Positions 15,295-62,802 of a DNA stretch of 64,000 bases are shown here, piece by piece. The translations under genes and the position numbers were made by a program. The stretch covers positions 20,807,645 to 20,871,644 of the forward strand of contig OV121088.1 in NCBI GenBank assembly GCA_921293015.1, in the 5' to 3' direction. The stretch's first letter is position 1. Every line of letters starts with the position of its first letter. The notes beneath the pieces are model-generated. The model was not told where the DNA came from and did not search any database. It saw nothing but the letters and a program-made list of their open reading frames with translations. The DNA comes from Phorcus lineatus (Eukaryota; Mollusca; Gastropoda; Trochida; Trochidae).

Positions 15295-15298
15295 TCGT

Positions 15299-15365
15299 GA
15301 GTGAGTGAGTGAGTGAGTTATTGCTTAATGCCGCTTGGGCAATATTTCAGCCATTAGCGGCGAGT
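15299..15365 (+). mobile_element. 67-bp 3'-end retroposon scrap with 11-bp target duplication
   Basis: The insert starts with (GAGT)n and continues 'tattgcttaatgccgcttgg' and 'gcaatatttcagccattagc'. It is flanked by 'tctccactcgt' at 15288-15298 and 15366-15376. GTGAGTGAGT tails followed by 'GCCGCTT..AGCAATATT' are familiar from gastropod and bivalve SINE/LINE 3' ends. Insert plus duplication is 78 bp, so the host frame is kept in register, but stop codons are introduced. Confidence 0.75.
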
Positions 15366-17727
15366 TCTCCACTCGTAAATGTAATAAAAATTCCGCTACC
15401 ATGGGAATAGAAATGTTTAGATCTAACAACTGTCGCTGTTCTCTCCATCTATTACATATGTTCCATTTTGCATCATACAATCTAGAGGTAGAAGGTCTGA
15501 TCGCCTTAGTGATTGCATCAGACGGTCCCTCGCCGAATCCTCTATCTGAGCGATCTCCTGACAATCTCCACACGTGTAGATTCAATGCCGCTAGGTCTTT
15601 GTGGAACACTCCCGAGTGAGGCTGAGTGAGAAGATTGTGCCACTGAGGTAACTGAAGTGGAGCTTCCGTCAACAATTCCAACAGATTTGGAAACCACGGT
15701 CTTGTGGGCCATGCTGGCGCTACTAAGTAAACCCGACACTTGTGGGTCGCGATCTTGGCTAACACCTCTGGAATGATCTTCATTGGTGGAAAGGCATACG
15801 CTACCATCCCCTCCCAAGAGATCGACAGAGCATCCACTGCCCAAGCTAAAGGATCTGGAATCGGACTCACAAACGTTGGAATGCGAAAGTTCCTGCTCGT
15901 TGCGAAGAGGTCTATCGTTGGATACTCCCAAGTTCGCGCTATCAACTGCACAGCTTCCTTGTGAAGAGTCCACTCCGTAGAAATCACTTGATTCCTGCGC
16001 GATAGAGAATCGGCCAAAACATTCAGTTTCCCCGGAATGTGCCTCGCTCTTATGATGATCCTGGCCTGATCCACTATTTGGAAAAGTACACGAGTGAGAT
16101 CCATTAAGTCCTTCGAGCGAGTTCCCCCTTGTTTGTTTATATACGCTACCACTGTTGAATTGTCTGTGGCTATCATCACATTTTTTCCGTACAGTCGACG
16201 CCACCACTGTCGAACTGCCTTTACCACCGCCAACATTTCCAGTACGTTTATGTGCAACGATGCCTCCTGGAGAGACCATGAACCTTGGGTCTGAAACCGA
16301 TCTAGATGAGCACCCCAACCCTCTTGGGAGGCGTCCGTAAATATCGTGATCTCTGGCGGTAGCTCTGTAAACCTCGTTCCTCCCATCACATTGCACTCCT
16401 TTGTCCACCATAATAGCTCGTGGCGTACTCTGAAAGGACATGTTATGCAGCTGTCCAACTGCCAACGCCTGTTGTCGTTTATCCAGACTTGGAAATGACG
16501 AAGGTTTAGCCGGCCCCTGTAAGTGAATGCCTGGATTGACGTGAGTGATCCCAAAAGCGACATCCATCTCCTTACTGGCGCTGCTCCTTGTTGAGTTAAC
16601 GTGAGAATCAATTCCTTGATAACTAACCAGCGGTCTAGAATGGGCAAAATGAGACCTTGATCTGCATCCAGCACAGCTCCCAGAAACTTGATCCTTGTTG
16701 TGGGTGTTAATTCCGATTTCTCTGGGTGAATTAACCAACCTAGATGAGTAAACACGTGGATAACGAATTCCGTCTGTTGCAAAAGCATGTCCGTTTTCAC
16801 ATGTCTCCCCAAAAAATCGTCGAGATATCCGTGGATGGCAATACCCCGCATGTGCAGGAACTGGAGTACCGGTTTCAATACCATCGTAAATAGCCAAGGT
16901 GCTATTGATACCCCGAAGGGAAGAACACGAAACTGGAATCGCCTGCCGTTCACCGCGAACCTCAGATACTTCTGGGAGTGAGGATGTATAGGGATGTGAA
17001 GATAGGCGTCCTTCAAATCCATGCTGACAAACTTGGAACAAGGATGAATGAGCTTCCTGACATTTGACAGAGATTCCATCATGAATTTTGGAGGTTTTGC
17101 CAAAAATTCCTTGCTCAAGATCTTCAGGTCTATTATCATTCTCATTTCCCCTGAGTCGCGCTTGGGTACTAGGAAAACTGGAGAATAAAACCCCCGAGAC
17201 GAGTCTAGGGGGGACAACTCTACAACTGCCTCCTTCAGCATCAGTTGATTCACTGCGAGCATCGCCGCCTCCAGGTGCGAACCTTGAAGATAATACCTCC
17301 TTCCTATAGGATACACCGCTAGAGGTGGACGAACTTGGAATTGAAGTTGATACCCTTCGGAAACCACCGAATTTATCCAAGGATCCCGCGTGATCTGTTC
17401 CCAATTTTGGGCGTAATGTTGCAGTCGACCCCCCACTGGCGAGGGAACGACTGGAAGTTGAAATCCGAAATCTAAAATCAAGTCCGTGGACATGCGAGGG
17501 TCGAAAGGATCTGACTGTGTCAAAACGTCCGGAACGGAGTCAACGACGTCGGGGGGGAGCAGACACGCCCCTAGACCCCCTGGAACCTCTGCCTCAAAAA
17601 TTAGACGGCTGAGTGTTGTTTCTCGGTTGCTGATACTGAGCTTCTGTCTGACGACCCTTGGCCTGCATATTTGCTCTCTCCCACGCTGAACGATGGAGGG
17701 GGGAATGGGTCTGAAGACTGGGGCCAC
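15325..17727 (-). CDS. DIRS reverse transcriptase-RNase H (plus N-terminal part of the recombinase)
   Basis: The frame is about 800 codons. Reverse transcriptase covers roughly residues 150-400, with VFLVPKRDSGEMRMIIDL, MDLKDAYLHIPIHPH, LPFGVSIAPWLFT and the catalytic box GYLDDFLG. RNase H covers about 460-590, with FTDASQEGWGA, NVLEMLAVVKAV, ATDNSTVVAYINKQGG and HIPGKLNVLADSLSRR. A conserved DIRS tail follows (TIDLFATSRNFRIPTFVSP), then the start of the recombinase core-binding domain. The stop falls in the 67-bp insert. The listed start codon is GTG; the frame is open further up to a TAG near 17770 with no ATG seen, so the true start or a frameshift from gag is uncertain. The 620-codon frame at 15542-17404 is a shadow of this one. 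Confidence 0.85.
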   Translation of the reverse strand: MAPVFRPIPPSIVQRGREQICRPRVVRQKLSISNRETTLSRLIFEAEVPGGLGACLLPPDVVDSVPDVLTQSDPFDPRMSTDLILDFGFQLPVVPSPVGGRLQHYAQNWEQITRDPWINSVVSEGYQLQFQVRPPLAVYPIGRRYYLQGSHLEAAMLAVNQLMLKEAVVELSPLDSSRGFYSPVFLVPKRDSGEMRMIIDLKILSKEFLAKPPKFMMESLSNVRKLIHPCSKFVSMDLKDAYLHIPIHPHSQKYLRFAVNGRRFQFRVLPFGVSIAPWLFTMVLKPVLQFLHMRGIAIHGYLDDFLGRHVKTDMLLQQTEFVIHVFTHLGWLIHPEKSELTPTTRIKFLGAVLDADQGLILPILDRWLVIKELILTLTQQGAAPVRRWMSLLGSLTSIQAFTYRGRLNLRHFQVWINDNRRWQLDSCITCPFRVRHELLWWTKECNVMGGTRFTELPPEITIFTDASQEGWGAHLDRFQTQGSWSLQEASLHINVLEMLAVVKAVRQWWRRLYGKNVMIATDNSTVVAYINKQGGTRSKDLMDLTRVLFQIVDQARIIIRARHIPGKLNVLADSLSRRNQVISTEWTLHKEAVQLIARTWEYPTIDLFATSRNFRIPTFVSPIPDPLAWAVDALSISWEGMVAYAFPPMKIIPEVLAKIATHKCRVYLVAPAWPTRPWFPNLLELLTEAPLQLPQWHNLLTQPHSGVFHKDLAALNLHVWRLSGDRSDRGFGEGPSDAITKAIRPSTSRLYDAKWNICNRWREQRQLLDLNISIPMVAEFLLHLRVENSPLMAEILPKRH

Positions 17728-17818
17728 CTCTTCTGCCGCTGGGGGCGCCGCGATTTCTGGTCTGAGCTAGTAGAGCCGCCGTAAGTCTGGAGTTAAGGTT
17801 CCTAGAAGTCTGCGCATC

Positions 17819-18628
17819 CTATGAACTTATGGCCTGACTACACTTCCCGTTAAACATAGACTCAGAGTTAACAGGTTGCTGAAAGAGATCCTCCTTCGAG
17901 TCCTGCGGCAGATTCCTAACTCCTTCCAGCAATTGAGACCGTTCCAAGGCTGTCAGCCGTCCTATTGTGCCAAGTTGAGCTTGGGTAGCATCACTGACTG
18001 CCAGGTAGATGACGTCCAGAAAAGAATGAGCTATGGCCACCTCCTCCGCGCTCATGACTACCAAAGATTGAGGTTTCACTCCCTTATAGTCCTGGAAGGT
18101 AGGGGGTATGAGCTGTCTGACCCCTGCAGCGAACCAGTTAATATACGACAAGATATCCACTGAACTCCTCGCTGAAGAATCAATGTCCCTTATATCCTTG
18201 CGTGTGAGGGAAAATTTCTTCATTGCTCTCCTCTGGAGTGCCCTGGCATCTAACTGGCCAAAATCCCTGTCCAGATCTGGTGCAGAATCAGGAAGCATCC
18301 GATCATGGATGACATACGCTTGTTTCAAGCTAGCTCTAGGGAGACTTGAAATATCCTTGGCCTTAGACAGATTACTGTTAATCAAGTTCAAGCCCGCCTT
18401 AACAACTGAGGAATGAGGCAAAGATCGTTTGGGTGGACGAGGGGTAGGCAGCATGCCTGTGGTACCCAATTCTTCCGGAAGAGCCTGAGAATCCTCCTGA
18501 TCCAAAGATGACGGAGCCGTACATGGCTTAAGTTTGTACAACATCTCAAGTTTGTCAACAAATGTCCATTCCGGTACTAAGTCCGCGGCCGAAGTGTCCG
18601 CCGGCGGAACAAGTAAAGAAGTGAGCAC
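17819..18628 (-). pseudogene. DIRS gag-like protein, C-terminal part (cut by pearl-type insert)
   Basis: About 270 codons, no cysteine knuckle, mostly helical. Segments include WTFVDKLEMLYKLKP, SSVVKAGLNLINSNLSKAK, QLDARALQRRAMKKFSLTRK and ILSYINWFAAGVRQLIPP. It lies just upstream of the RT frame, as gag does in DIRS elements. Its upstream end runs straight into the pearl-type element at 18629, so the listed start is artificial (GTG at the junction). The N-terminal part continues beyond the insert at 19905. Confidence 0.7.
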
Positions 18629-19904
18629 AGCTCACATACCCCCGCTTCAAACTACAGTCTGGCTTTCTTTGTTGGTCTTACCCTCAAAAAGCTCACTTAG
18701 GGATCATGGTTGATAAGTGTATTAAGTTTGTTGAAGCTAGCATGTATAGTTTAGAAGATATGCTCAGGAAAAAGCACTTTGTCAGATAGTCATTGTTTTA
18801 GTAACGTTTCCATGTAAAACGCAAAAAATAAAAATAATTTTTTGGTCTTACCCTCAAGAGACGCACCAATATGGATAAGTGTATGACGTTTGGTGATGAT
18901 AGCATGTACGGTTTAGAAGATATACTCCGGACAAAGGACTTAGTCATAAATTCACTGTTTTAGTCATGTTTCCATGGAAAGCGCAAAAAAAATAAAAATC
19001 ATTTGTTGGTCTAACCCTCAAAAGGCACATCAATGGATCATGGTTGATAAGTGTATGAAGTTTGGTAAAGATAGCATGTACAGTTATGAAGATATACTCC
19101 GTACAAAGGACTTTGTCACTGTTTAAGTCATGTTTCCATGGAAACCGCAAAAAATAAAAATCATTTGTTGGTCTAACCCTCAAAATCACATCTAGGGATC
19201 ATGTTTTATAAGTGTATGAAGTTTGATGAAGATAGCATGTATAGTTTAGGATAAATGCTCCGGACAAAGGACTTGGTCATAGAGTCACTGTTTTAGTCAT
19301 GTTTCCATGGAAATCGCAAAAAATAAAAATCATTTGTTAGTCTAACCCTCAAAAGGCACATCTAGGGATCATGGTTGATAAGTGTATGAAGTTTGGTGAA
19401 GCTAGCATGTATAGTTTAGGAGATATGCTCCGGACAAAGGACTTGGTCATAGAGTCACTGTTTTAGTCATGTTTCCATGGAAACCGCAAAAAATAAAAAT
19501 CATTTGTTAGTCTAACCCTCAAAAGGCACATCTAGGGATCATGGTTGATAAGTGTATGAAGTTTGGTGAAGCTAGCATGTATAGTTTAGGAGATATGCTC
19601 CGGACAAAGGACTTGGTCATAGAGTCACTGTTTTAGTCATGTTTCCATGGAAACTGCAAAAAATAAAAATCATTTGTTGGTCTAACCCTCAAAAGGCACA
19701 TCTAAGGATCATGGTTGATAAGTGTATGAAGTTTGGTGAAGCTAGCATGTATAGTTTAGGAGATATGCTCCGGACAAAGATTTGTGACGGACGGACAGAC
19801 GGACAGACGGACAGACAGACAGACGGACAGACGGACAGACGGACGGACAGAATGAACGCTATATACCCCCGCTTACGCTGTAAGGCGGGGGTATAATAAT
19901 AATC
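18629..19904 (+). mobile_element. Pearl/Helitron-like element inserted in the DIRS gag
   Basis: The left end is 'agctcacatacccccgcttc'. The core has about 6.5 units of 170 bp carrying 'tctaaccctcaaaaggcaca', 'agtgtatgaagtttggtgaa' and 'gtcatgtttccatggaaacc'. It then has a (GACGGACA)n tract at 19789-19850 and the end 'gctatatacccccgcttacg' followed by 'gcgggggtataata'. The left end motif 'ctcacatacccccgc' is shared with the element at 52637. This layout is typical of mollusc pearl elements, which are non-autonomous Helitron/Helentron relatives. It is unbroken and lies inside the inner DIRS, so it is among the youngest insertions here. Confidence 0.75.
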
Positions 19905-20964
19905 ATCCCCTCATGCGTATCTAACTTCGCATCCATAGGCAAGTTACCTCCCGAATTCTCATCCGTGATTATAGGCAAGTTCGGCGGATTGAAAACATCA
20001 ACAAATTCCGACAGCTCCTGTTGTTGTTGTTGTTGATTGTCACCTAGTAAGTCATCATGACCCAGCCCGAGCGGGACGCCCCATGCCGTCCCTGAGCTTA
20101 GAGGCTGGCAGCTCGCCCGACCGCCCGCCGCACGTGCTAACCGGGCCGGTAATTGATGGGTATGACCCACATTCTGTACCACGGTTCATAGCCACGGGCT
20201 TCATGCCCAGCACGTGCGACCCGGCCTTTACCGACCCAGTGGCGGGAGGGAGAAGGTTATCGGTGTCACGTCCGTGCGGCCCGATCAAGCCTGCCCCACT
20301 TGCGGCGCATGGTTGAGAGCGGACACTCACACTTCCTAGGTCTCCACGACCTGACAAAGACGGCAGGCCCCCAGGGGGTAAACACTGCCTCTTAACGGGG
20401 AGATCGTTAAACCTAACCTCCGAACTCCCACCGTTGGGGTCGGCAGCTCGCTTACCAGCTGTAGTCTTATTATCAGCGGACTGCTTAGCTCCGGAACGGG
20501 ATTCATACCCCTGGGGGGAAGCGGAATTTGCCGAGCTACCCGAACGGGACTTAAGACTTATTGAGGGATCTCTTAAGTTCCTTAAACTTGGCATCGTTAC
20601 GCTCCTCTAAATCCTTGACTGACTTGGAAAAGGACTGAACTAGCTCTTGCTTAAAAGATGAGAGGAGAGCACCTAAATCAAGGGAGTTGGACTGAGTAGC
20701 TACCGTACCAGACGGGGGAATCTGAGAAGAAAGTATTGGATCCTCACTTAAAGTAGCTGAAGCTTTAGTTTTTAATGGAGTGGATAGGGACTTCTTAGAT
20801 CTTATTTCGAACATCTTTATCCATTCCTCATCGGGCAAATCCTTACACATAAGGCAACGTGAGGCCATAGAGCAGATTGAATCTTTGTCACATAAAAAAC
20901 ACAAGGAATGAGGGTCCCTATTCGACATAAATCTCTGGCAATTAACACATTTACGTTGCGACAT
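19905..20964 (-). pseudogene. DIRS gag-like protein, N-terminal part (frameshifted)
   Basis: It starts at 20964 with MSQRKCVNCQRFMSNRD, followed by CFLCDKD and CLMCKDL: a Cys-rich N-terminus with C-x2-C pairs that could bind zinc. A coiled-coil stretch follows (FKQELVQSFSKSVKDLEERN), ending at a stop at 20551. Coding character then continues in a second frame (20594-20055, Ser/Gly/Pro-rich) and a third (20182 to about 19905, with a Gln run and ELSEFVDVFNPPNLPIITDE). There are therefore at least two frame changes before the pearl insert. One could be a programmed shift, but decay is the simpler reading. A diverged version of the middle section survives in the outer DIRS (27940-28236). Confidence 0.65.
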
Positions 20965-21105
20965 CTTGAATACTTCGCGGAAAAAACGACAAAGTCACAC
21001 AAAATCAGAGTACAAGTCACACAAAAAACACATGAAAGTCACAAATAAACACAATGCGATTGTCCAAAGACCCAATGTCGATGTCACATACCCCTATTTA
21101 ACAAG

Positions 21106-32789: not shown

Positions 32790-33700
32790 CCATTATGAGA
32801 TATGTAGGTGCTAAGCTTTACGAGATATCGCGTTCACAATGTATTACAAAGTGGTCAAAGTGTTGTGGTGACCTTGAAAATGAGGTAAAGGTCACCAATG
32901 TTGACTGGCATCTGAGTCTTCCTCCATTTAAAGCTGACACCAAATATGAACACTCTAGGTGCTAAGCTTTACGAGATATCGCGTTAACAATGTATTACAA
33001 AGTGATGACAATGTCGTGGTGACCTTGAAAATGACATCAAGGTCACCAATGTTGACTGGCGTCTGAGTATTCCACCACTGAAGGCTGTCACTAAATATGA
33101 ACACTCTAGGTGCAAAGCTTTATGAGAAATCGCGTTCACAATGTATTACGTATACACAGTGGTCAAAGTGTCGTCATGACCTTGAAAATGAGGTAAAGGT
33201 CACCACTGTCAACTGGCGTATGAGTCTTCTTCTATTGAAAGCTGTCACTAAATATGAACACTCTAGGTGCTAAGCTTTACGAGATATCGCGTTAACACTG
33301 TATTACAAAATGGTCAAAGTGTCGTGGTGACCTTGAAAATGATGTCAAGGTCACCAATGTCGACTGGCATCTGAGTCCTCCACCGTTGTAGGCTGTCGTC
33401 AAACATAAACACTCTAGGTGCTAAGCTTTACGAGATATCGCATTCACAATGTATTACAAAGTGGTCAAAGTGTCGTGGTGACCTTGAAAATGTAGTTAAG
33501 GTCACCATAGTCGACTGGCGCCTGAGTCTTCCTCCATTGAAAGCTGTCACTAAATATGAACACTCTAGGTACTTAGCTTCACGAGTTATGGCGTTAACAA
33601 GAATCCGGACGTATGTCCGTACGTACGTACGGAAGCCGCTTAAATCATAGTCCCCCATTCCGCGTTGCGGCGGGGGACAATCAAAAGCATTATGTCTCCT
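32790..33700 (+). mobile_element. Pearl-like element with about 153-bp tandem core
   Basis: About five units contain 'gtgctaagctttacgagata', 'tcgcgttcacaatgtattac', 'gtggtgaccttgaaaatga' and 'aaatatgaacactctagg' at a period of about 153 bp. The end near 33600-33690 has the palindromic 'cgtacgtacgtacg' and a hairpin 'gtcccccattccgcg'/'gcggcgggggac'. This layout (tandem core, then ccccc/ggggg hairpin) is the same as in the other pearl-like copies with a different core sequence. Confidence 0.6.
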
Positions 33701-33826: not shown

Positions 33827-33916
33827 CTTTTCTGCTGTCTCAGCTTACTCCGCTGCAGCTGGTTTGTCACACTCTGCATGTTCTGTTCATGTTCCCTCAA
33901 AATTTGATCCTTGGCT
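33827..33916 (-). CDS. Coiled-coil protein, exon 11
   Basis: A 90-bp exon encodes AKDQILREHEQNMQSV, then TNQLQRSKLRQQK. The acceptor is gtatttgacag/AGCC and the donor GAAAAG/gtgagc. Its first base completes the last codon of exon 10, and it ends in phase 2, matching exon 12 across the 23.6-kb transposon-filled intron. Helical, Gln-rich and charged, as in the other exons. Confidence 0.8.
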
Positions 33917-34087: not shown

Positions 34088-34197
34088 TGCTGAGACAGTT
34101 CGATGTTTGAGGAGAGCACCCTGGTGAGCGTGGCTGTCTGCTGCTGTCTGAGCGAATCCATCTGCAGCTCCCCTTCCTGTTCCCCCTCCTCCACAAC
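34088..34197 (-). CDS. Coiled-coil protein, exon 10
   Basis: A 110-bp exon encodes VVEEGEQEGELQMDSLRQQ, then QTATLTRVLSSNIELSQ. The acceptor is gtatgtgtgcag/GTTGTG and the donor CAGCA/gtgagt. Phase 0 in, phase 2 out. Its first bases GTTGTGGAGGAGGGGG are closely copied, together with the acceptor, in every unit of the adjoining minisatellite 34198-38145. Confidence 0.8.
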
Positions 34198-37100
34198 CTG
34201 CACACATACAATTCATAGACAGTATATCATACGTAGCTACTGTTACTGCTACCCTCCTCCACCACCTGTACACACATGATTCATATTGAAAATATTACAA
34301 TGCCGCTAGTGCTCCCCCCTCCTCCACCACCTGTACACACATGATTCATAGATAGCATATTACAATGCAGCTACTGCTCGCAGCTACCGCTCCCCCCTTC
34401 CTCCACCACCTGTACACACATGATTCATAGATAGCATATTACAATGCAGCTACTGCTCCCCCCTCCTCCGCAACCTGTACACACATGATTCATAGATAGC
34501 ATATTACAATGCAGCTACTGCTCGCAGCTACCGCTCCCCCCTTCCTCCACCACCTGTACACACATGATTCATAGATAGCATATTACAATGCAGCTACTGC
34601 TCGCAGCTACCGCTCCCCCCTTCCTCTGCCACCTGTACACACATGATTCATAGATAGCATATAACAATGCAGCTATCGCTCCCCCCTCCTCCGCCACCTG
34701 AACAAATGATTCATAGATAGCATATTACAATGCAGCTACCGCTCCCCCCTTCCTCCACCACCTGTACACACATGATTCATAGATAGCATATTACAATGCA
34801 GCTACTGCTCGCAGCTACTGCTCCCCCCTCCTCCACCACCTGTACACACATGATTCATAGATAGCATATTACAATGCAGCTACTGCTCGCAGCTACCGCT
34901 CCCCCCTTCCTCCACCACCTGTACACACATGATTCATAGATAGCATATTACAATGCAGCTATCGCTCCCCCCTCCTCTGCCACCTGTACACACATGATTC
35001 ATAGATAGCATAATACAATGCAGCTACTGCTCCCCCCTCCTCTACCACCTGTACACACATGATTCATAGATAGCATATTACAATGCAGCTATCGCTCTCC
35101 CCTCCTCTGCCACCTGTACACACATGATTCATAGATAGCATATTACAATGCAAATACTGCTTGCAGCTACCGCTCCCCCCTCCTCCGCCACCTGTACACA
35201 CATGATTCATAAATAGCATATTACAATGCAGCTATTGCTCCCCCCTCCTCTGCAACCTGTACACACATGATTCATAGATAGCATATTACAATGCAGCTAC
35301 TGCTCGCAGCTACCGCTCCCCCCTTCCTCCACCACCTGTACACACATGATTCATAGATAGCATATTACAATGCAGCTATCGCTCCCCCCTCCTCTGCAAC
35401 CTGTACACACATGATTCATAGATAGCATATTACAATGCAGCTACTGCTCCCCCCTCCTCTACCACCTGTACACACATGATTCATAGATAGCATATTACAA
35501 TGCAGCTATCGCTCCCCCCTCCTCTGCCACCTGTACACACATGATTCATAGATAGCATATTACAATGCAGCTACTGCTCCCCCCTCCTCTACCACCTGTA
35601 CACACATGATTCATAGATAGCATATTACAATGCAGCTATCGCTCCCCCCTCCTCTGCCACCTGTACACACATGATTCATAGATAGCATATTACAATGCAA
35701 ATACTGCTCGCAGCTATTGCTCCCCCCTCCTCCACCACCTGTACACACATGATTCATAGATAGCATATTACAATGCAGCTATCGCTCCCCCCTCCTCTGC
35801 CACCTGTACACACATGATTCATAGATAGCATATTACAATGCAGCTACTGCTCCCCCCTCCTCTACCACCTGTACACACATGATTCATAGATAGCATATTA
35901 CAATGCAGCTACTGCTCCCCCCTCCTCCACCACCTATACACACATGATTCATAGATAGCATATTACAATGCAGCTACTGCTCGCAGCTATTGCTCCCCCC
36001 TCCTCCACCACCTGTACACACATGATTCATAGATAGCATATTACAATGCAGCTATCGCTCCCCCCTCCTCTGCCACCTGTACACACATGATTCATAGATA
36101 GCATATTACAATGCAGCTATCGCTCCCCCCTCCTCTGCCACCTGTACACACATGATTCATAGATAGCATATTACAATGCAGCTACTGCTCCCCCCTCCTC
36201 TACCACCTGTACACACATGATTCATAGATAGCATATTACAATGCAGCTACTGCTCCCCCCTCCTCCACCACCTGTACACACATGATTCATAGATAGCATA
36301 TTACAATGCAGCTACTGCTCGCAGCTATTGCTCCCCCCTCCTCCACCACCTGTACACACATGATTCATAGATAGCATATTACAATGCAGCTATCGCTCCC
36401 CCCTCCTCTGCCACCTGTACACACATGATTCATAGATAGCATATTACAATGCAGCTACTGCTCCCCCCTCCTCCACCACCTGTACACACATGATTCATAG
36501 ATAGCATATTACAATGCAGCTATCGCTCCCCCCTCCTCTGCCACCTGTACACACATGATTCATAGATAGCATATTACAATGCAGCTACTGCTCCCCCCTC
36601 CTCTACCACCTGTACACACATGATTCATAGATAGCATATTACAATGCAGCTATCGCTCCCCCCTCCTCTGCCACCTGTACACACATGATTCATAGATAGC
36701 ATATTACAATGCAAATACTGCTCGCAGCTACCGCTTCCCCCTCCTCCGCCACCTGTACACACATGATTCATAAATAGCATATTACAATGCAGCTATTGCT
36801 CCCCCCTCCTCCGCAACCTGTACACACATGATTCATAGATAGCATATTACAATGCAGCTACTGCTCGCAGCTATTGCTCCCCCCTCCTCCACCACCTGTA
36901 CACACATGATTCATAGATAGCATATTACAATGCAGCTATCGCTCCCCCCTCCTCTGCCACCTGTACACACATGATTCATAGATAGCATATTACAATGCAG
37001 CTACCGCTCCCCCCTTCCTCCACCACCTGTACACACATGATTCATAGATAGCATATTACAATGCAGCTATCGCTCCCCCCTCCTCTGCCACCTGTACACA

Positions 37101-38145
37101 CATGATTCATAGATAGCATATTACAATGCAGCTATCGCTCCCCCCTCCTCTGCCACCTGTACACACATGATTCATAGATAGCATATTACAATGCAAATAC
37201 TGCTCGCAGCTACCGCTCCCCCCTCCTCCGCCACCTGTACACACATGATTCATAGATAGCATATTACAATGCAGCTATTGTTCCCCCTCCTCCGCAACCT
37301 GTACACACATGATTCATAGATAGCATATTACAATGCAGCTACTGCTCGCAGCTACCGCTCCCCCTTCCTCCACCACCTGTACACACGTGATTCATAGATA
37401 GCATATTACAATGCAGCTACTGCTCGCAGCTACCGCTCCCCCCTTCCTCCACCACCTGTACACACATGATTCATAGATAGCATATTACAATGAAGCTGTC
37501 GCTCCCCCCTCCTCTGCCACCTGTACACACATGATTCATAGATAGCATATTACAATGCAGCTATCGCTCCCCCCTCCTCCACCACCTGTACACACATGAT
37601 TCATAAATAGCATATTACAATGCAGCTATTGCTCCCCCCTCCTCCGCAACCTGTACACACATGATTCATAGATAGCATATTACAATGCAGTTTCGCTCCC
37701 CCCTTCCTCCACCACCTGTACACACATGATTCATAGATAGCATATTACAATGCAGCTACTGCTCGCAGCTATACCGCTTCCCCCTCCTCCACCACCTGTA
37801 CACACATGATTCATAGATAGCATATTACAATGCAGCTATCGCTCCCCTCTCCTCTGCAACCTGTACACACATGATTCATAGATAGCATATTACAATGCAG
37901 CTACTGCTCCCCCCTCCTCCACCACCTGTACACACATGATTCATAGATAGCATATTACAATGCAGCTATCGCTCCCCCCTCCTCTGCCACCTGTACACAC
38001 ATGATTCATAGATAGCATATTACAATGCAGCTATCGCTCCCCTCTCCTCTGCAACCTGTACACACATGATTCATAGATAGCATATTACAATGCAGCTACT
38101 GCTCCCCCCTCCTCCACCACCTGTACACACATGATTCATATTGAA
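34198..38145. repeat. 66/79-bp minisatellite carrying exon 10's acceptor
   Basis: About 58 units over 3.9 kb. The unit is 'cctgtacacacatgattcat', 'agatagcatattacaatgca', 'gctatcgctcccccctcctc' and 'tgccac' (66 bp). A longer variant has 13 extra bases ('tgctcgcagctac'-like). On the minus strand each unit holds tgtgtacag/GTGGTGGAGGAGGGGGG or a close variant, a match to the true exon 10 acceptor and its first coding bases. The boundary unit merges with the exon itself. Confidence 0.9.
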
Positions 38146-38850
38146 AATATTATAATGCAGCTAATGCAACCTCATTTCTCTCTAGTTGTTTACATTCAGA
38201 TTTTTCTGAATTTAAACTAACTGATAAATGCTATTGCAACCAAATAAACATGCAGTCACAAACTATGAGATTGATTTTGTTCAAATGCATTGACAACTTA
38301 GGCATAAAAAGAACAGACTTATGAGGCTAGTTTTTGGTGACAAAATTCAAGGGGACATTCCAGTTTAAAGAAATATGTTATTAGTACATGACTTTAACAT
38401 AAGCCTGTTGAAACATGTTGCAACTGAGGGTAACCTTTTGGTTGATTCGAATTTTACAACTAGATAAATGAGAGTGCACACTCGGTAAATTAAAAGAAGA
38501 ATGAGAAGTGAAGCTACATATATCGGCACTACAACTGTGAAAAGCCTTGCTATGGCATTAAAAGGCATTGTTGATTAGTCTTATCATAAATCATTTTGTA
38601 AATGTATGAATATTCTATCCATACATAAAGTTTATTTTTATGATGTTGTTAAATTCTTAATAGTCAACACCTTTTTCATGTCATTTTCCCTCAAAACAAT
38701 ATGGCAGACTGTAGCCGTTAGCTTAGGCTCTTTAACATCACAATGCCATGATTACTGTCACTTTTTTTTCAATACATAATAATATTTCATGTGAGCCTCA
38801 ATTTGCCACAATTGCGAAGAACAGGAACAATGTATAGCCCAAAAACTCAC
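38146..38850. other. Intronic sequence, nothing recognised
   Basis: AT-rich DNA between the minisatellite and exon 9. No gene, RNA or repeat is recognised. The small minus-strand frame at 38365-38568 has no supporting features. Confidence 0.5.
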
Positions 38851-38918
38851 CTGCAGCCTATGAGCGAGATGTTCTTGCAAGCGTGCCAGCATGGCTTGTC
38901 TTTCCCTTTGTTTTTCAC
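38851..38918 (-). CDS. Coiled-coil protein, exon 9
   Basis: A 68-bp exon encodes EKQRERQAMLARLQEH then LAHRLQ. The acceptor is ttatgtacag/GTGAAA and the donor CTGCAG/gtgagt. Two bases complete the last codon of exon 8 and it ends in phase 0. The M-L-A-R-L-Q-E-H helix resembles RQVLEYNQMQAH of exon 5. Confidence 0.8.
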
Positions 38919-40196: not shown

Positions 40197-40338
40197 TGTG
40201 ATATCGCTCCATCTGCTGATGGTGTTGCTTGAGGATGCGGTTCACATCACTGCTGCTGAGGTTTGCAACATTGCCAACATCTGCCATCTGCACAGCCAGC
40301 TTCTGATCAACATCAGCTTGTTCCCGACTGTTCAACTC
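40197..40338 (-). CDS. Coiled-coil protein, exon 8
   Basis: A 142-bp exon encodes 47 residues: ELNSREQADVDQKLAVQMA, DVGNVANLSSSDVNRIL and KQHHQQMERYH. The acceptor is gtacatcttgcag/GAGTTG and the donor ATCACA/gtcagt. Phase 0 in, phase 1 out. SSSDVNRILKQHHQQME is one of several copies of a 'Ser/Thr-x2-(E/D)-x-LL-x-QH-x2-QM' motif in this protein (compare exons 3/4, 5 and 15), implying a repeating module of about 80-100 residues. Confidence 0.85.
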
Positions 40339-40345
40339 CTGCAAG

Positions 40346-43300
40346 ATGTACAGTATATAAAGACAAAATAGACTCCTAACCGGTGACAGTGTTGGATCCT
40401 AATGTACAGTATATAAAGACAAAATAGACTCCTAACCGATGACAGTGTTGGATCCTAATGTACAGTATATAAAGACAAAATAGAGTCCTAACCGATGACA
40501 GTGTTGGATCCTAATGTACAGTATATAAAGACAAAATAGAGTCCTAACCGATGACAGTGTTGGATCCTAATGTACAGTATATAAAGACAAAATAGAGTCC
40601 TAACCGATGACAGTGTTGGATCCTAATGTACAGTATATAAAGACAAAATAGACTCCTAACCGATGACAGTGTTGGATCCTAATGTACAGTATATAAAGAC
40701 AAAATAGACTCCTAACCGATGACAGTGTTGGATCCTAATGTACAGTATATAAAGACAAAATAGAGTCCTAACCGATGACAGTGTTGGATCCTAATGTACA
40801 GTATATAAAGACAAAATAGAGTCCTAACCGATGACAGTGTTGGATCCTAATTTACAGTATATAAAGACAAAATAGAGTCCTAACCGATGACAGTGTTGGA
40901 TCCTAATGTACAGTATATAAAGACAAAATAGAGTCCTAACCGATGACAGTGTTGGATCCTAATTTACAGTATATAAAGACAAAATAGAGTCCTAACCGAT
41001 GACAGTGTTGGATCCTAATGTACAGTATATAAAGACAAAATAGAGTCCTAACCGATGACAGTGTTGGATCCTAATGTACAGTATATAAAGACAAAATAGA
41101 GTCCAAACCGATGACAGTGTTGGATCCTAATGTACAGTATATAAAGACAAAATAGACTCCTAACTGATGACAGTGTTGGATCCTAATGTACAGTATATTA
41201 AGACAAAATAGAGTCCTAACCGATGACAGTGTTGGATCCTAATGTACAGTATATAAAGACAAAATAGAGTCCTAACTGATGACAGTGTTGGATCCTAATG
41301 TACAGTATATTAAGACAAAATAGAGTCCTAACCGATGACAGTGTTGGATCCTAATGTACAGTATATTAAGACAAAATAGAGTCCTAACCGATGACAGTGT
41401 TGGATCCTAATGTACAGTATATAAAGACAAAATAGACTCCTAACTGATGACAGTGTGGAATCCTTATGTACAGTATATTAAGACAAAATAGACTCCTAAC
41501 CGATGACAGTGTTGGATCCTAATGTACAGTATATAAAGACAAAATAGAGTCCTAACTGATGACAGTGTGGAATCCTTATGTACAGTATATAAAGACAAAA
41601 TAGAGTCCTAACTGATGACAGTGTTGGATCCTAATGTACAGTATATTAAGACAAAATAGAGTCCTAACTGATGACAGTGTTGGATCCTAATGTACAGTAT
41701 ATTAAGACAAAATAGAGTCCTAACCGATGACAGTGTGGAATCCTTATGTACAGTATATAAAGACAAAATAGAGTCCTAACCGATGACAGTGTTGGATCCT
41801 AATGTACAGTATATTAAGACAAAATAGAGTCCTAACCGATGACAGTGTTGGATCCTAATGTACAGTATATTAAGACAAAATAGAGTCCTAACGGATGACA
41901 GTGTTGGATCCTAATGTACTGTATATAAAGACAAAATAGAGTCCTAACTGATGACAGTGTTGGATCCTAATGTACAGTATATAAAGACAAAATAGACTCC
42001 TAACTGATGACAGTGTTGGATCCTAATGTACAGTATATAAAGACAAAATAGAGTCCTAACCGATGACAGTGTTGGATCCTAATGTACAGTATATAAAGAC
42101 AAAATAGACTCCTAACTGATGACAGTGTTGGATCCTAATGTACAGTATATAAAGACAAAATAGAGTCCTAACTGATGACAGTGTTGGATCCTAATGTACA
42201 GTATATAAAGACAAAATAGAGTCCTAACCGATGACAGTGTTGGATCCTAATGTACAGTATATAAAGACAAAATAGACTCCTAACTGATGACAGTGTTGGA
42301 TCCTAATGTACAGTATATAAAGACAAAATAGAGTCCTAACTGATGACAGTGTTGGATCCTAATGTACAGTATATAAAGACAAAATAGAGTCCTAACCGAT
42401 GACAGTGTTGGATCCTAATGTACAGTATATAAAGACAAAATAGAGTCCTAACCGATGACAGTGTTGGATCCTAATGTACAGTATATAAAGACAAAATAGA
42501 GTCCAAACCGATGACAGTGTTGGATCCTAATGTACAGTATATAAAGACAAAATAGACTCCTAACTGATGACAGTGTTGGATCCTAATGTACAGTATATTA
42601 AGACAAAATAGAGTCCTAACCGATGACAGTGTTGGATCCTAATGTACAGTATATAAAGACAAAATAGAGTCCTAACTGATGACAGTGTTGGATCCTAATG
42701 TACAGTATATTAAGACAAAATAGAGTCCTAACCGATGACAGTGTTGGATCCTAATGTACAGTATATTAAGACAAAATAGAGTCCTAACTGATGACAGTGT
42801 TGGATCCTAATGTACAGTATATTAAGACAAAATAGAGTCCTAACCGATGACAGTGTTGGATCCTAATGTACAGTATATAAAGACAAAATAGACTCCTAAC
42901 TGATGACAGTGTGGAATCCTTATGTACAGTATATTAAGACAAAATAGACTCCTAACCGATGACAGTGTTGGATCCTAATGTACAGTATATAAAGACAAAA
43001 TAGAGTCCTAACTGATGACAGTGTTGGATCCTAATTTACAGTATATAAAGACAAAATAGAGTCCTAACTGATGACAGTGTTGGATCCTAATGTACAGTAT
43101 ATTAAGACAAAATAGAGTCCTAACTGATGACAGTGTTGGATCCTAATGTACAGTATATTAAGACAAAATAGAGTCCTAACCGATGACAGTGTGGAATCCT
43201 TATGTACAGTATATAAAGACAAAATAGAGTCCTAACCGATGACAGTGTTGGATCCTAATGTACAGTATATAAAGACAAAATAGACTCCTAACCGATGACA

Positions 43301-43929
43301 GTGTTGGATCCTAATGTACAGTATATAAAGACAAAATAGAGTCCTAACTGATGACAGTGTTGGATCCTAATGTACAGTATATAAAGACAAAATAGAGTCC
43401 TAACCGATGACAGTGTTGGATCCTAATGTACAGTATATAAAGACAAAATAGACTCCTAACTGATGACAGTGTTGGATCCTAATGTACAGTTTATAAAGAC
43501 AAAATAGAGTCCTAACTGATGACAGTGTTGGATCCTAATGTACAGTATATAAAGACAAAATAGAGTCCTAACCGATGACAGTGTTGGATCCTAATGTACA
43601 GTATATAAAGACAAAATAGACTCCTAACTGATGACAGTGTTGGATCCTAATGTACAGTATATAAAGACAAAATAGAGTCCTAACTGATGACAGTGTTGGA
43701 TCCTAATGTACAGTATATAAAGACAAAATAGAGTCCTAACCGATGACAGTGTTGGATCCTAATGTACAGTATATAAAGACAAAATAGACTCCTAACTGAT
43801 GACAGTGTGGAATCCTTATGTACAGTATATAAAGACAAAATAGAGTCCTAACCGATGACAGTGTTGGATCCTAATGTACAGTATATAAAGACAAAATAGA
43901 GTCCTAACCGATGACAGTGTTGGATCCTA
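40346..43929. repeat. 56-bp minisatellite beside exon 8
   Basis: About 64 units of 'tgtacagtatataaagacaa', 'aatagagtcctaaccgatga', 'cagtgttggatcctaa'. It starts 8 bp from the exon 8 acceptor, and the first unit includes the intron end. Variants (ataaag/attaag, gagtcc/gactcc, ccgatg/ctgatg, gtggaatcctta) form patterns that recur about 1.4 kb apart, showing block duplication. Confidence 0.9.
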
Positions 43930-44122
43930 AAGACACTGCTCATTGAGGCAAGATCTTTAATGCTGACATTCAGGATATAGTACTTTATAGGACACATCCA
44001 TCCTCCATTAGTCTTCGACCAAACAGTTGTCTAAATCCTCCAATATGTGTAAGAAAACAAAGGGATGAAATAGGCAAAAATTTGAAAAGATAGAGTTACT
44101 CTGTAAATAGAGATTTATGAAC

Positions 44123-44221
44123 CTTGTTGAGTTGATCCATCTCCTGCACATCATTGTGGTCAAGGTCAGTGTTAGTCTCTTCCATCTCCTGGTGTTGTCT
44201 CACTACCAGCTCATGATAGCT
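44123..44221 (-). CDS. Coiled-coil protein, exon 7
   Basis: A 99-bp exon encodes 33 residues: SYHELVVRQHQEMEETNTD then LDHNDVQEMDQLNK. The acceptor is gattttgttgcag/AGCTAT and the donor AACAAG/gttcat. Phase 0 on both sides. More acidic than its neighbours, but still helix-favouring. Confidence 0.75.
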
Positions 44222-44399: not shown

Positions 44400-45495
44400 C
44401 ATAACCTCCCCTACATCCCACCTGAGGTTACTATCACTTCCTGCCTCAACACCAATAGTGAGACATGGTACACCCCAATTAAGGTTACAATAACTTCCTG
44501 CTTCAACATCATTAGTGAAACATGGTACACCCCACCTGAGGTTACTATCACTTCCTGCCTCAACATCATTAGTGAAACATGGTTCCCCCCACTTAAGGTT
44601 ACAATAACTTCCTGCTTCAACATCATTAGTGAAACATGGTACACCCCACCTGAGGTTCCTATCACTTCCTGCCTCAACATCATTAGTGAAACATGGTTCC
44701 CCCCACTTAAGGTTACAATAACTTCCTGCTTCAACATCATTAGTGAAACATGGTACACCCCACTTAAGGTCACTATCACTTCCTGCCTCAACATCATTAG
44801 TGAAACATGGTTCCCCCCACTTAAGGTTACTATCACTTCCTGCCTCAACATCATTAGTGAAACATGGTACACCCCAATTAGGGTTACTATCACTTCCTGC
44901 TTCAACATCATTAGTGAAACATGGTACACCCCACCTGAGGTTACTATCACTTCCTGCCTCAACATCATTAGTGAAACATGGTTCCCCCCACTTAAGGTTA
45001 CAATAACTTCCTGCTTCAACATCATTAGTGAAACATGGTACACCCCACCTGAGGTTACTATCACGTTCTGCTTCAACATCATTAGTGAAACATGGTACAC
45101 CCCACCTGAGCTTACTATCACGTTCTGCTTCAACATCATTAGTGAAACATGGTACACCCCAACTGAGGTTACTATCACGTTCTGCTTCAACATCATTAGT
45201 GAAACATGGTACACCCCACCTGAGGTTACTATCACTTCCTGCTTCAACATCATTAGTGAAACATGGTACACCCCAACTGAGGTTACTATCACTTCCTGCC
45301 TCAACATCATTAGTGAAACATGGTACACCCCACTTAAGGTTACTATCACTTCCTGCTTCAACATCATTAGTGAAACATGGTACACCCCACCTGAGGTTAC
45401 TATCACTTCCTGCTTCAACATCATTAGTGAAACATGGTACACCCCACCTGAGGTTACTGTCACTTCCTGCTTCAACATCATTAGTGAAACATGGT
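44400..45495. repeat. 57-bp minisatellite, open in several frames on both strands
   Basis: About 19 units of 'ttcaacatcattagtgaaac', 'atggtacaccccacctgagg', 'ttactatcacttcctgc'. Because 57 is a multiple of three, stop-free frames arise on both strands: 397 and 356 codons on the minus strand, 372 on the plus strand. The minus-strand reading is a 19-residue repeat CFTNDVEAGSDSNLRWGVP. It lies inside the intron between exons 6 and 7, whose phases fit without it, so I treat it as non-coding. Confidence 0.85.
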
Positions 45496-45685
45496 AATGT
45501 AATGAGGTGATAGTCCAAGGGGTACATCAGATAAAATGCATCAACTGTCAACTAATCAAAGATGAATATTTTACTGTAAGGTACATTCAGCATTTTGGGA
45601 TAAATATGCAAGCAAGAAATAGAATTCATATCAGCATGTTACATAGCATTTGACACTTGGTTATCAAAGCCAAACATCTATTTAC

Positions 45686-45834
45686 CTGTATGATTTCAGT
45701 GGTTCCAACCCCCTTCTCTGAAGTTTGCAGAAATTCTGCTCTCTCTTTTGCATGTTTGGTTGTCAACTTGTGTAGTTGTCTATTACGTCGCTGCTGCAAC
45801 TTCTCTACTAGTGATTGTTGCTGTCTTAGTCTCT
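45686..45834 (-). CDS. Coiled-coil protein, exon 6
   Basis: The exon encodes RLRQQQSLVEKLQQRRNRQ, LHKLTTKHAKERAEFLQ and TSEKGVGTTEIIQ. The donor is ATACAG/gtaaat. The acceptor reads gtgttacagagAGACTA. Joining in frame to exon 5 requires the second AG, giving a start at 45832; the first AG (45834) would need one extra base from upstream. Either the second AG is used or a small exon between 45834 and 49195 was missed. The helix 'KLQQRRNRQLHKLTTKH' repeats the RLAKRRQVL pattern of exon 5. Confidence 0.75.
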
Positions 45835-48184: not shown

Positions 48185-49190
48185 ATTTGATATTTCACTC
48201 ACAGGACTGTGCCTGTTTTGTAGTGCTTCATTACATTTCAAGCTGACTGTACCTGTTTTGTAGTGCTTCATTACGTTTCAAGCTGACTGTACCTGTTTTG
48301 TAGTGCTTCATTACATTTCAAGCTGACTGTACCTGTTTTGTAGTGCTTCATTACATTTCAAGCTGACTGTACCTGTTTTGTAGTGCTTCATTACGTTTCA
48401 AGCTGACTGTACCTGTTTTGTAGTGCTTCATTACATTTCAAGCTGACTGTACCTGTTTTGTAGTGCTTCATTACATTTCAAGCTGACTGTACCTGTTTTG
48501 TAGTGCTTCATTACATTTCAAGCTGCATGTACCTGTTTTGTAGTGCTTCATTACATTTCAAGCTGCATGTACCTGTTTTGTAGTGCTTCATTACGTTTCA
48601 AGCTGACTGTACCTGTTTTGTAGTGCTTCATTACATTTCAAGCTGACTGTACCTGTTTTGTAGTGCTTCATTACATTTCAAGCTGACTGTACCTGTTTTG
48701 TAGTGCTTCATTACATTTCAAGCTGCATGTACCTGTTTTGTAGTGCTTCATTACGTTTCAAGCTGACTGTACCTGTTTTGTAGTGCTTCATTACATTTCA
48801 AGCTGACTGTACCTGTTTTGTAGTGCTTCATTACATTTCAAGCTGACTGTACCTGTTTTGTAGTGCTTCATTACATTTCAAGCTGCATGTACCTGTTTTG
48901 TAGTGCTTCATTACATTTCAAGCTGCATGTACCTGTATTGTAGTGCTTCATTACATTTCAAGCTGACTGTACCTGTTTTGTAGTGCTTCATTACATTTCA
49001 AGCTGCATGTACCTGTATTGTAGTGCTTCATTACATTTCAAGATGACTGTGCCTGTATTGTAGTGCTTCATTACATTTCAAGCTGCATGTACCTGTATTG
49101 TAGTGCTTCATTACATTTCAAGCTGCATGTACCTGTATTGTAGTGCTTCATTACATTTCAAGCTGACTGTACCTGTATTGTAGTGCTTCC
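48185..49190. repeat. 40-bp minisatellite abutting exon 5
   Basis: About 25 units of 'agctgactgtacctgttttg', 'tagtgcttcattacatttca'. A second version has 'agctgcatgtacctg'. The last unit runs into the exon 5 donor: real GTAAGGAAGCACTACAATAC, unit GTAATGAAGCACTACAAAAC on the minus strand. Each unit also holds ACAG/GTACAGT, a plausible donor. Confidence 0.9.
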
Positions 49191-49194
49191 TTAC

Positions 49195-49389
49195 GGAATC
49201 AACCTCCTCCTGGTATTGCTTTAGCAGCTCTTCCTGCTGTGTGGGGTTCAGTTTGCCACTGGACTGCAGACCAGAGAGGATGGTGTCTATGAGGTGCACA
49301 TGTGCCTGCAGGTCTTCTGTTTGGTTGTGAGCCTGCATCTGGTTGTACTCCAGTACCTGTCTTCGCTTGGCCAGCCGCTCCTCCAGATT
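49195..49389 (-). CDS. Coiled-coil protein, exon 5 (longest exon)
   Basis: A 195-bp exon encodes 65 residues: NLEERLAKRRQVLEYNQM, QAHNQTEDLQAHVHLID, TILSGLQSSGKLNPTQQ and EELLKQYQEEVDS. The acceptor is gtgtgtttaag/AATCTG and the donor GATTCC/gtaagg. Phase 0 on both sides. It combines the basic helix E-x-R-L-A-x-R-R with the 'G-x-L-x-P-x2-x-E-x-LL-x-Q' motif. This pair looks like one unit of the protein's repeat module. Confidence 0.85.
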
Positions 49390-49620: not shown

Positions 49621-49704
49621 TTTTCTCTGGCGTGCCTGCTCAATGCCCAATTTTGCTTCAAGGGCAGACATTTGTCCCTTGAGCTTCTCCAGCAATGCAT
49701 CTAC
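49621..49704 (-). CDS. Coiled-coil protein, exon 4
   Basis: An 84-bp exon encodes 28 residues: VDALLEKLKGQMSALEAK then LGIEQARQRK. The acceptor is gattcttttcag/GTAGAT and the donor AGAAAA/gtgtgt. Phase 0 on both sides. It continues the motif begun at the end of exon 3 (GMSEAE). Confidence 0.8.
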
Positions 49705-49911: not shown

Positions 49912-52262
49912 GGATGGTAAGATGACAAGATAGTAGAGATGTGAGATGACAAGATAGTAGAGATGTGAGATGACAAGATGGTAGAGATGTGAGATGACAA
50001 GATGGTAGAGGTGGTGAGATGACAAGATGGTAGAGGTGGTGAGATGACAGGATGGTAGAGGTATAGTGAGATGACAAGATGGTAGTGGTGGAGATGACAA
50101 GATGGTAGAGATGAGAGATGACAAGATAGTAGAGATGTGAGATGACAAGATAGTAGAGATGTGAGATGACAAGATGGTAGAGGTGGTGAGATGACAGGAT
50201 GGTAGAGGTATAGTGAGATGACAAGATGGTAGTGGTGGAGATGACAAGATGGTAGAGATGAGAGATGATAGGATGGTAAAGATGTGAGACTAGAAGATGG
50301 TAGCGATGGTGAGATGACAGGATGGTAGCGATGGTGAGATGACAGGATGGTAGAGATGGTGAGATGATAAGATGGTAGAGATGTGAGGTGACAAGATGGT
50401 AGAGATGTGAAATGATAGGATGGTAGAGATGTGAGATGACAGGATGGTAAAGATGTGAGATGACAGGATGGTAGAGATGTGAGATGACAAGATGGAAGAG
50501 ATCTGAGACAAGAAGATGGTAGAGATATGAGATGACAAGATGGTTGAGATGTGAGATGACAGGATGGTAGAGATGTGAGATGACAGGATGGTAGAAATGT
50601 GAAACGATAGGATGGTAGAAATGTGAGATGATAGGATGGTAGAGATGTGAGATGATAGGATGGTAGAGATGTGAGACTAGGAGATTGTAAAGATGGTGAG
50701 AAGACAGGATGGTAGAGATGCGAGATGACAAGATGGTAGAGATGGTGAAATGACAGGATGGTAGAGTTGGTGAGATGACAGGATGGTAGAGATGTGAGAT
50801 GACAAGATAGTAGAGATGTGAGATGACAAGATGGTAGAGGTGGTGAGATGACAGGATGGTAGAGGTATAGTGAGATGACAAGATGGTAGTGGTGGAGATG
50901 ACAAGATGGTAGAGATGAGAGATGATAGGATGGTAAAGATGTGAGACTAGAAGATGGTAGCGATGGTGAGATGACAGGATGGTAGCGATGGTGAGATGAC
51001 AGGATGGTAGAGATGGTGAGATGATAAGATGGTAGAGATGTGAGATGACAAGATGGTAGAGATGTGAAATGATAGGATGGTAGAGATGTGAGATGACAGG
51101 ATGGTAAAGATGTGAGATGACAGGATGGTAGAGATGTGAGATGACAAGATGGAAGAGATCTGAGACAAGAAGATGGTAGAGATATGAGATGACAAGATGG
51201 TTGAGATGTGAGATGACAGGATGGTAGAGATGTGAGATGACAGGATGGTAGAAATGTGAGATGATAGGATGGTAGAAATGTGAGATGATAGGATGGTAGA
51301 GATGTGAGATGATAGGATGGTAGAGATGTGAGACTAGGAGATTGTAAAGATGGTGAGAAGACAGGATGGTAGAGATGCGAGATGACAAGATGGTAGAGAT
51401 GGTGAAATGACAGGATGGTAGAGGTGGTGAGATGACAGGATGGTAGAGATGTGAGATGACAAGATTGTAGAGATGGTGAGATGACAAGATTGTAGAGATG
51501 CGCGATGACAAGATGGTAGAGATCTGAGAAGACAGGATGGAAGAGATGTGAGACTTGGAGATGGTAGAGATGGTGAGATGACAAGATGGTAGAGATGTGA
51601 GATGACAAGATGGTAGAGATCTGAGAAGACAGGATGGAAGAGATGTGAGACTTGGAGATGGTAGAGATGGTGAGATGACAAGATGGTAGAGATGTGAGAT
51701 GACAAGATGGTAGAGATATGAGATGACAGGATGGTTGAGATGTGAGACTAGAATATAGTAGAGGTGGTGAGATGACAAGATGGTAGAGATGTGAGATGAC
51801 AGTATGGTTGAGATGTGAAACTAGAATATGGTAGCGATGGTGACATGACAGGATGGTAGCGATCGTGAGATGACAAGATGGTAGAGATGTGAGACGACAA
51901 GATAGTAGAGATGTGAGATGACAAGATAGTAGAGATGTGAGATGACAAGATAATAGAGATGTGAGATGACAAGATGGTTGAGTTGGTGAGATGACAGGAT
52001 GGTAGAGATGTGAGATGACAGGATGGTAGAGATGGTGAGATGACAGGATGGAAGAGATGTGAGATGACAAGATGGTAGAGATGTGAGATGTGGATGGTTG
52101 AGATGTGAAAGTAGAATTGGTAGAGGTGGTGAGATGACAGGATGGTAGAGATGTGAGATGACAAGATGGTAGAGGTGGTGAGATGGCAAGATGGTAGAGA
52201 TGTGAGATGACAAGATGGTAGAGATGTGAGATGACAGGATGGTAGAGGTGGTGAGATGACAG
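49912..52262. repeat. 24-bp minisatellite with a 657-bp higher-order duplication
   Basis: About 95-100 units of 'gatggtagagatgtgagatg' plus 'acaa' or 'acag'. The period is a multiple of three, so minus-strand frames of 814 and 636 codons read as 'ILSSHISTILSSH' or 'SLPSCHLT' repeats. Both are artefacts. The segment from about 50281 (marked by 'gatgtgagactagaagatgg') recurs at about 50938, showing duplication of a roughly 657-bp block. The array fills most of the intron between exons 3 and 4. Confidence 0.9.
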
Positions 52263-52357: not shown

Positions 52358-52432
52358 CTCTGCCTCACTCATTCCCGAGGAGCAGATAAGGTCATTTCTC
52401 ATCTTCTCCCTCTGTTCTTGCCTGTGCTCATT
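52358..52432 (-). CDS. Coiled-coil protein, exon 3
   Basis: A 75-bp exon encodes 25 residues: NEHRQEQREKMRNDLI then CSSGMSEAE. The acceptor is gtttgttgctgcag/AATGAG-type, with branch-rich upstream sequence, and the donor GCAGAG/gtgagc. Phase 0 on both sides. It joins exon 4 to give SSGMSEAE/VDALLEKL, a typical junction of this protein's repeated motif. Confidence 0.8.
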
Positions 52433-56179: not shown

Positions 56180-56269
56180 AAGCTTGTTGTTTGATCTATT
56201 TTGGATGCTCAACAAAGCCGCCTCCAGAGCTTGTTGATCTTTGCTTAACTTGTTGTCTTTCCTGGCCTC
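56180..56269 (-). CDS. Coiled-coil protein, exon 2
   Basis: A 90-bp exon encodes 30 residues: EARKDNKLSKDQQALEAA then LLSIQNRSNNKL. The acceptor is ttttttgcag/GAGGCC and the donor AAGCTT/gtgagt. Phase 0 on both sides. Helical and charged. It joins exon 1 (KHGL) and exon 3 (NEHRQ). Confidence 0.75.
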
Positions 56270-62759: not shown

Positions 62760-62802
62760 TTTGTAGAATAGAGTTAATTTTTTATTTTCTCTACGTTTTC
62801 AC

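Follow-up and report, generated by a model that had tools for sequence, protein, structure and literature searches.

The window, as we call the whole 64,000-nucleotide stretch of Phorcus lineatus DNA that was analysed, contains on its minus strand 14 exons of a coiled-coil gene, one of which is directly adjoined by a large minisatellite. The exons were called by a simple exon finder that had been trained on hand-called exons, and the gene model is a predicted one. The features at the centre of this analysis are as follows.

3588-56269, minus strand: host coiled-coil gene, 14-exon stretch in the window, exons joined in phase
56180-56269, 52358-52432, 49621-49704, 49173-49389, 45686-45834, 44123-44221 and 40197-40338, minus strand: exons 1-7 of the 14
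38851-38918, 34088-34197, 33827-33916, 10098-10221, 7186-7332, 6793-6855 and 3588-3763, minus strand: exons 8-14 of the 14
38851-38918, minus strand: exon preceding the array (EKQRERQAMLARLQEHLAHRLQ), ending in phase 0 in the in-phase gene model
34198-38167, minus strand: minisatellite of mostly 65 and 78-79 bp units, each with an acceptor copy and the first exon bases
34088-34197, minus strand: the true exon, 110 bp, whose coding part starts VVEEGEQEGELQMDSLRQQQ; acceptor tgtgtgcag/GTTGTGG and donor CAGCA/gtgagta, set by the chain of phases
33827-33916, minus strand: following exon (AKDQILREHEQNMQSVTNQLQRSKLRQQK) in the in-phase gene model

Exon 34088-34197 is supported by the fact that the 14 coiled-coil exons chain in phase; an earlier model with a donor TCG/GTTTCT at 40188 was dropped when exon 38851-38918 was seen to restore the phase. 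Among the exons found in the window it comes ninth. Two more exons lie upstream outside the window, together with three candidate exons downstream of it, and the number "exon 10" given by the first-pass annotation is unconfirmed. The array-bearing intron before this exon measures 4.65 kb and has its own upstream exon with a strong donor. No Pfam match was obtained at E 0.1 for the joined 13-exon protein, single exons gave by themselves weak matches below the cut-offs (the best being CUX1_N), and a PDB search of the host-gene protein returned nothing below E 0.2; the gene may resemble limbin/EVC2. Elsewhere in the window, long open frames occupy 14431-18631 and 20554-20994 (minus strand) within a 23.6-kb intron, which may be a DIRS-type retroelement with recombinase-like, reverse transcriptase-like and gag-like frames, and an open frame at 62187-62798 (minus strand) resembles the end of a LINE-type protein. 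Arrays with units of about 145-170 bp, at 4058-5727, 18668-19779 and 32805-33600, look transposon-derived, and the genome contains their 170-bp unit again at C2:61980000.

The minisatellite was called by TRF at 34252-38167 on the minus strand and is contiguous with exon 34088-34197. An anchored search of that strand revealed 58 AG/GT sites, namely 57 decoys that read tgtgtacag/GTGGTGGAGGAGGGGGG or a near-copy of it, followed by the true site at 34197. The first exon base falls at 38120 in the first decoy and at 34265 in the last. A fuzzy search using a 19-base acceptor segment also yielded 58 copies, 54 of them identical, and every one (58/58) ends in AG followed by GT. The first-pass annotation had counted about 58 decoys in units of 66 or 79 bp, each with an acceptor copy: the observation holds, while the decoys number 57 plus the true site and the spacing of the AG/GT sites is 65 bp in 37 of 57 cases, 78-79 bp in 15, and 64, 66, 68 or 80 bp in the other five. 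The true site, atgaattgtatgtgtgcag/GTTGTGG, differs from the decoy sequence; over positions -33 to +18 the decoys share on average 0.77 of their bases with the true junction (range 0.61-0.82), with no gradient along the array.

It had been proposed that the units of the minisatellite carry a version of the exon's own acceptor together with the first coding bases of the exon. This was borne out when the two sides of the junction were aligned in register with the unit and compared with about 50,800 windows lying outside arrays. The intron side, positions -26 to -1, scored 14 against a background maximum of 10 and was equalled by 0 of 50,751 windows; the exon side, positions +1 to +16, likewise scored 14 against a maximum of 10 and was equalled by 0 of 50,831. 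Extension of the exon side to +39 gave 14 against 12, which is barely above background. Since the intron and exon sides each match above background in one and the same register, the unit, judged by its sequence, holds both sides of the boundary, including at least 16 exon bases.

A resemblance arising by chance between a G-rich repeat and a G-rich exon start would be conceivable in that both are rich in GGAGG, and tests that ignored the register were less decisive: the exon edge alone was equalled by 2 of 7263 background windows, and the whole junction, in a local test with a score of 57, was reached by 1 of 2523 windows (59), the array edge at 34198-34251 having been left unmasked. When array windows were counted as background the in-register comparisons were also weaker (13/21,328, 176/21,321, 8/21,326 and 329/21,326), and the first three were redone without arrays. 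However, the intron side matches independently of the exon side and both matches share one register, so that we give a chance resemblance next to no weight. The in-register tests thus dispose of chance composition as the source of the match; the suggestion that it might be no better than expected from C-rich sequence had been put forward together with the original observation, and the result of 0 in about 50,800 windows on each side speaks against it. A dispersed repeat was likewise ruled out by a search of the species' own assembly (957.8 Mb in 74 contigs) with the exon and the last unit: among the best five candidates scored, common words being skipped, all eight matches lay in the exon and array at 34 kb and none elsewhere. 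An 18-base motif taken from a repeat of the window occurred in 4 bacterial contigs and in 0 viral contigs.

The boundary minisatellite at 34 kb is therefore real and large, and it is one of three in a single gene. Arrays were collected with a unit of at most 100 bp, at least 5 copies and a TRF score of at least 500, thresholds that were chosen after the fact; seven arrays in the window qualified, each in a different one of the 13 introns. Besides the 34-38 kb array, which repeats an acceptor, two arrays cross an exon boundary at a donor, and the remaining four, at distances of 7-189 bp from an exon edge, show homology to the intron side or none.

48205-49194, minus strand: second crossing array, 40-bp unit with roughly the last 22 bp of exon 49173-49389 and its donor
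49173-49389, minus strand: exon of the gene model whose donor is repeated by the 40-bp array
6155-6766, minus strand: third crossing array, 50-bp unit with the donor of exon 6793-6855 and 16 exon bases (one gap), giving 11 extra donor copies
6793-6855, minus strand: exon of the gene model whose donor is repeated by the 50-bp array
40346-43930, minus strand: 64 copies of a 56-bp unit that holds a stretch of the intron upstream of the acceptor of exon 40197-40338; the array stops 7 bp short of this acceptor
9712-10077, minus strand: 19-bp array that starts in the intron, 20 bp past the donor of exon 10098-10221, with an intron-side match only
44412-45496, minus strand: 57-bp array whose distance to the closest exon edge is 189 bp, with a weak 24-column match to the intron just before the acceptor at 44221
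49920-52261, minus strand: 24-bp array; the donor of exon 52358-52432 is 96 bp away

The array at 48205-49194 supplies 24 extra donor copies, of which 22 have GT and 2 have GC. For this array and the one at 6.2 kb, the exon-side match in register was in each case equalled by 0 of about 50,800 windows; the intron side was compared in register, with arrays masked from the background, for the 34-kb array. Without the register, 125 of 7263 windows and 1 of 25 other exon edges did as well as the exon side at 6.2 kb. AG/GT is kept in 23 of 25 copies at 48 kb and in 12 of 12 at 6.2 kb, the latter by construction of the search pattern. No exon sequence was found in the unit of 40346-43930, where the exon-side score of 5 was reached by 6383 of 7263 background windows, nor in that of 9712-10077, where a score of 3 was reached by 7174 of 7263. 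For the array at 44412-45496, 3 of 2523 windows were as good as the weak intron-side match, and the exon-side score of 8 was attained in 707 of 7263 windows and at 2 of 25 other exon edges; no junction homology was found for the 24-bp array at 49920-52261.

Arrays of this kind have been described in amphioxus under the name of mirages. One report describes them as segments duplicated in tandem across intron-exon boundaries, in Adh3 and in the globin genes BflGb6 and BflGb9; the two haplotypes of BflGb6 carry 6 and 3 units, each of 150-160 bp (PMC3087553). According to the same report, many units contain AG/GT and RT-PCR suggests normal splicing, somatic instability was seen in the Adh3 mirage, copies at the edge of the BflGb6 cluster escape homogenisation, and mirages are proposed as a route to new introns (PMC3087553). 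Further amphioxus cases, in PGBD5 and troponin C, appear in a second report (PMC3902484). As in those cases, the arrays described here consist of minisatellite-like boundary copies at either exon end with AG/GT within the copies. Boundary sequence lies in register within the unit on both the intron and the exon side at 34 kb, and on the exon side at 48 kb and 6.2 kb, and AG/GT is retained in the copies at the frequencies given above. By their sequence, the arrays at 40346-43930 and 9712-10077 are described as arrays beside exons rather than as mirages. Unlike in the reported mirages, the host is a mollusc rather than a cephalochordate, the 34-kb array has 57 copies as opposed to the 6 and 3 units of the BflGb6 haplotypes, and three boundary-crossing arrays occur in one gene. 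A 133-residue myosin piece from the same genome scored 199-220 bits with eight PDB sequences of squid and scallop (3i5f, 2ec6, 2os8, 1dfk, 1dfl, 1b7t, 1kk7 and 1qvi) and at most 181 bits with vertebrate chains, of which Myosin-7 came next at 181; a shorter piece, a single myosin exon, did not tell molluscs from vertebrates.

A human parallel is provided by the 31-bp VNTR of CBS, c.1444_1467+7(16_21), whose name denotes 24 exon and 7 intron bases in 16-21 copies (PMC2630376), and which a table in another source places at "exon 13-intron 13" (PMC1395315). On our reading of this notation, the unit contains the donor of exon 13. Its repeat unit hence spans an exon-intron boundary as the present one does, but it involves a donor and not an acceptor and has fewer copies, and it has length alleles and a reported link with activity. 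Because both the amphioxus mirages and the CBS VNTR have been described, the kind is already known, and the 34-kb array is a mirage-type case. A related idea, attributed to Rogers, is that introns can be gained when AG/GT proto-splice sites are duplicated in tandem. Tandem copies with AG/GT could create introns in that manner; in contrast to such a process, no new intron is seen here, the intron having its own upstream exon and strong donor. No molluscan boundary minisatellite was found in the open-access literature, by searches that were mostly general rather than directed at molluscs or bivalves. A study on abalone mentions a minisatellite in intron 3 with no boundary noted there (PMC6905558), and an earthworm study describes intronic arrays (PMC12783039). 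With the present observations the range of boundary minisatellites, so far lancelets and a single human gene, would come to include a mollusc, in which one gene has several such arrays and the copy number exceeds that of the published globin cases.

Growth by repeated duplication across the intron-exon boundary, as the first-pass annotation had suggested, is well supported, since the unit matches both sides in register, the matches among the best five candidates in the genome are confined to the locus, and the gene has two more arrays that each repeat a donor junction. The 34-kb array is probably a mirage, that is, an acceptor-spanning duplication that ran from the exon to the array and left 57 near-neutral intronic copies ignored by splicing. 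The starting event would have been a tandem duplication of a segment over the acceptor of exon 34088-34197, comprising about 26 bp of the intron end and at least 16 bp of the exon start. Unequal exchange or slippage may then have expanded it to 57 copies that were homogenised inside the array and tolerated because they lie within an intron. The direction from exon to array is likely, and the array itself does not show it, because identity to the true junction does not rise toward the exon. The same absence of a gradient pointing to the exon as source would be consistent with a repeat that arose first in the intron and one copy of which became the exon edge by sliding of the acceptor, the first 16 coding bases then being derived from the array. 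Such an origin would also accord with the shortness and G-richness of the exon-side match (+1 to +16), which beyond +16 is near background, and with the AG steps near the exon start, which by eye keep phase, so that the edge could slide without a frameshift. We consider it unlikely: two arrays of the gene run across donors, one of them including 22 bp of exon sequence in register, where an exon source is simpler, and exon 34088-34197 lies within a continuous coiled-coil reading frame.

The array raises the question of how the splicing machinery picks out a single acceptor when 58 nearly equal ones are present. On a rough matrix of generic splice-site frequencies the decoys scored 1.48-5.86 (median 3.35) and the true site 3.94, with 1 of the 57 decoys scoring higher. 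Site strength therefore does not explain the skipping of decoys that, on this matrix, are nearly as good as the true acceptor. The same closeness of the scores makes splicing noise from the decoys, which had been suspected from the outset, a possibility. The spliceosome would instead take the copy nearest to the exon's own donor, by exon definition. When read from the phase-0 end of the preceding exon, all 57 decoys encounter an in-frame stop before the true exon, and stop-free in-phase messages resulted from 0 of the 57 decoys and 0 of the 35 duplicate donors (24 + 11). Because all 57 meet stops, the decoys could not lengthen the protein and could only lower its output, unless AG/GT were reused as a donor. 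The further proposal of the first-pass annotation, that the array allows variation in exon length, is thus unlikely, and at the protein level such variation is ruled out by the stops in all decoy products. Rare use of a decoy would produce an early-stop message that is removed by nonsense-mediated decay. Under the mirage interpretation the array would be expected to have little function and a copy number that varies between individuals, with perhaps a small cost to splicing that rises as copies are added.

The universal early stops can also be read as a means of tuning expression, in which the fraction of productively spliced messages would change with copy number, as is conceivable for the VNTR of human CBS; we counted the title of Lievers et al. 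in its favour as well, and regard this role as improbable. That the copies are used, with AG/GT serving as acceptor and then as donor so that the 4.65-kb intron is removed stepwise by recursive splicing and decoy use is harmless, is a far more remote prospect. It would fit the AG followed by GT in all 58 acceptor copies, the AG/GT kept in 23/25 and, by the search pattern, 12/12 copies of the donor arrays, and donor scores of 5.5-6.8 on the rough matrix at 48 of the 58 sites, which lie within the range of the gene's own donors (1.7-12.8). Yet these scores come from a generic matrix on which acceptor and donor are both moderate, the pyrimidine tracts look poor by eye, and homogenisation of the array alone would retain AG/GT. 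Near-neutral copies within the intron remain our preferred interpretation.

The tendency of arrays to lie near exons is marked in the host gene and unproved elsewhere. When the seven arrays were moved within their own introns, five or more of seven fell within 60 bp of an exon edge in 255 of 100,000 trials (1.64 expected), and three of seven within 25 bp in 1853 of 100,000. Free placement over the window, with 13 exons, gave five of seven within 60 bp in 0 of 20,000 simulations, a comparison that overstates the effect, given that several of the arrays occupy their whole introns. These arrays raise the question whether tandem duplication, a step proposed for intron gain, is especially frequent at splice junctions, and exon edges as minisatellite seeds in this lineage are the part worth following. 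It can be speculated, though we think it doubtful, that exon edges are the preferred birthplace of minisatellites in this mollusc, where junction-tied mutation, or a filter sparing duplications hidden by splicing, would have given most of the long introns a single large array beside an exon, some with dozens of working AG/GT sites that are perhaps recursively spliced.

In the flanks of the window, where exons may have been missed by the finder, a 58-bp array of 8.8 copies lies more than 2 kb from any exon found, contrary to the pattern. A 32-bp array of about 95 copies (positions 82892-85929 in the numbering of the window; L058 8892-10000 and L060 1-1929) begins 44 bp from an exon, contains donor-like GAAG/GTAAG in most copies and takes up a large part of the intron that separates two exons of the host gene upstream, and a 53-bp array of 5.7 copies, with a score of 333 that is under the limit, lies about 100 bp from an exon. 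Neither the 32-bp nor the 53-bp array was seen to cross an exon edge. Among 30 partly overlapping myosin loci, one has an array of at least 5 copies with a unit of at least 8 bp. Six regions from the same genome contained two arrays near domain matches, at 26 bp (4.9 copies) and 61 bp (59.6 copies), and three further arrays of at least 5 copies that adjoin no known exon; by eye, neither of the two arrays near myosin domain matches was seen to cross a junction. A 42-bp array of about 60 copies (L061 3228-5724) starts about 65 bp ahead of a myosin exon's acceptor. The myosin-head matches cluster at C2:56253553-57074307 and probably belong to muscle myosin heavy chain genes; one piece of this cluster, L030, is closest to molluscan muscle myosins.
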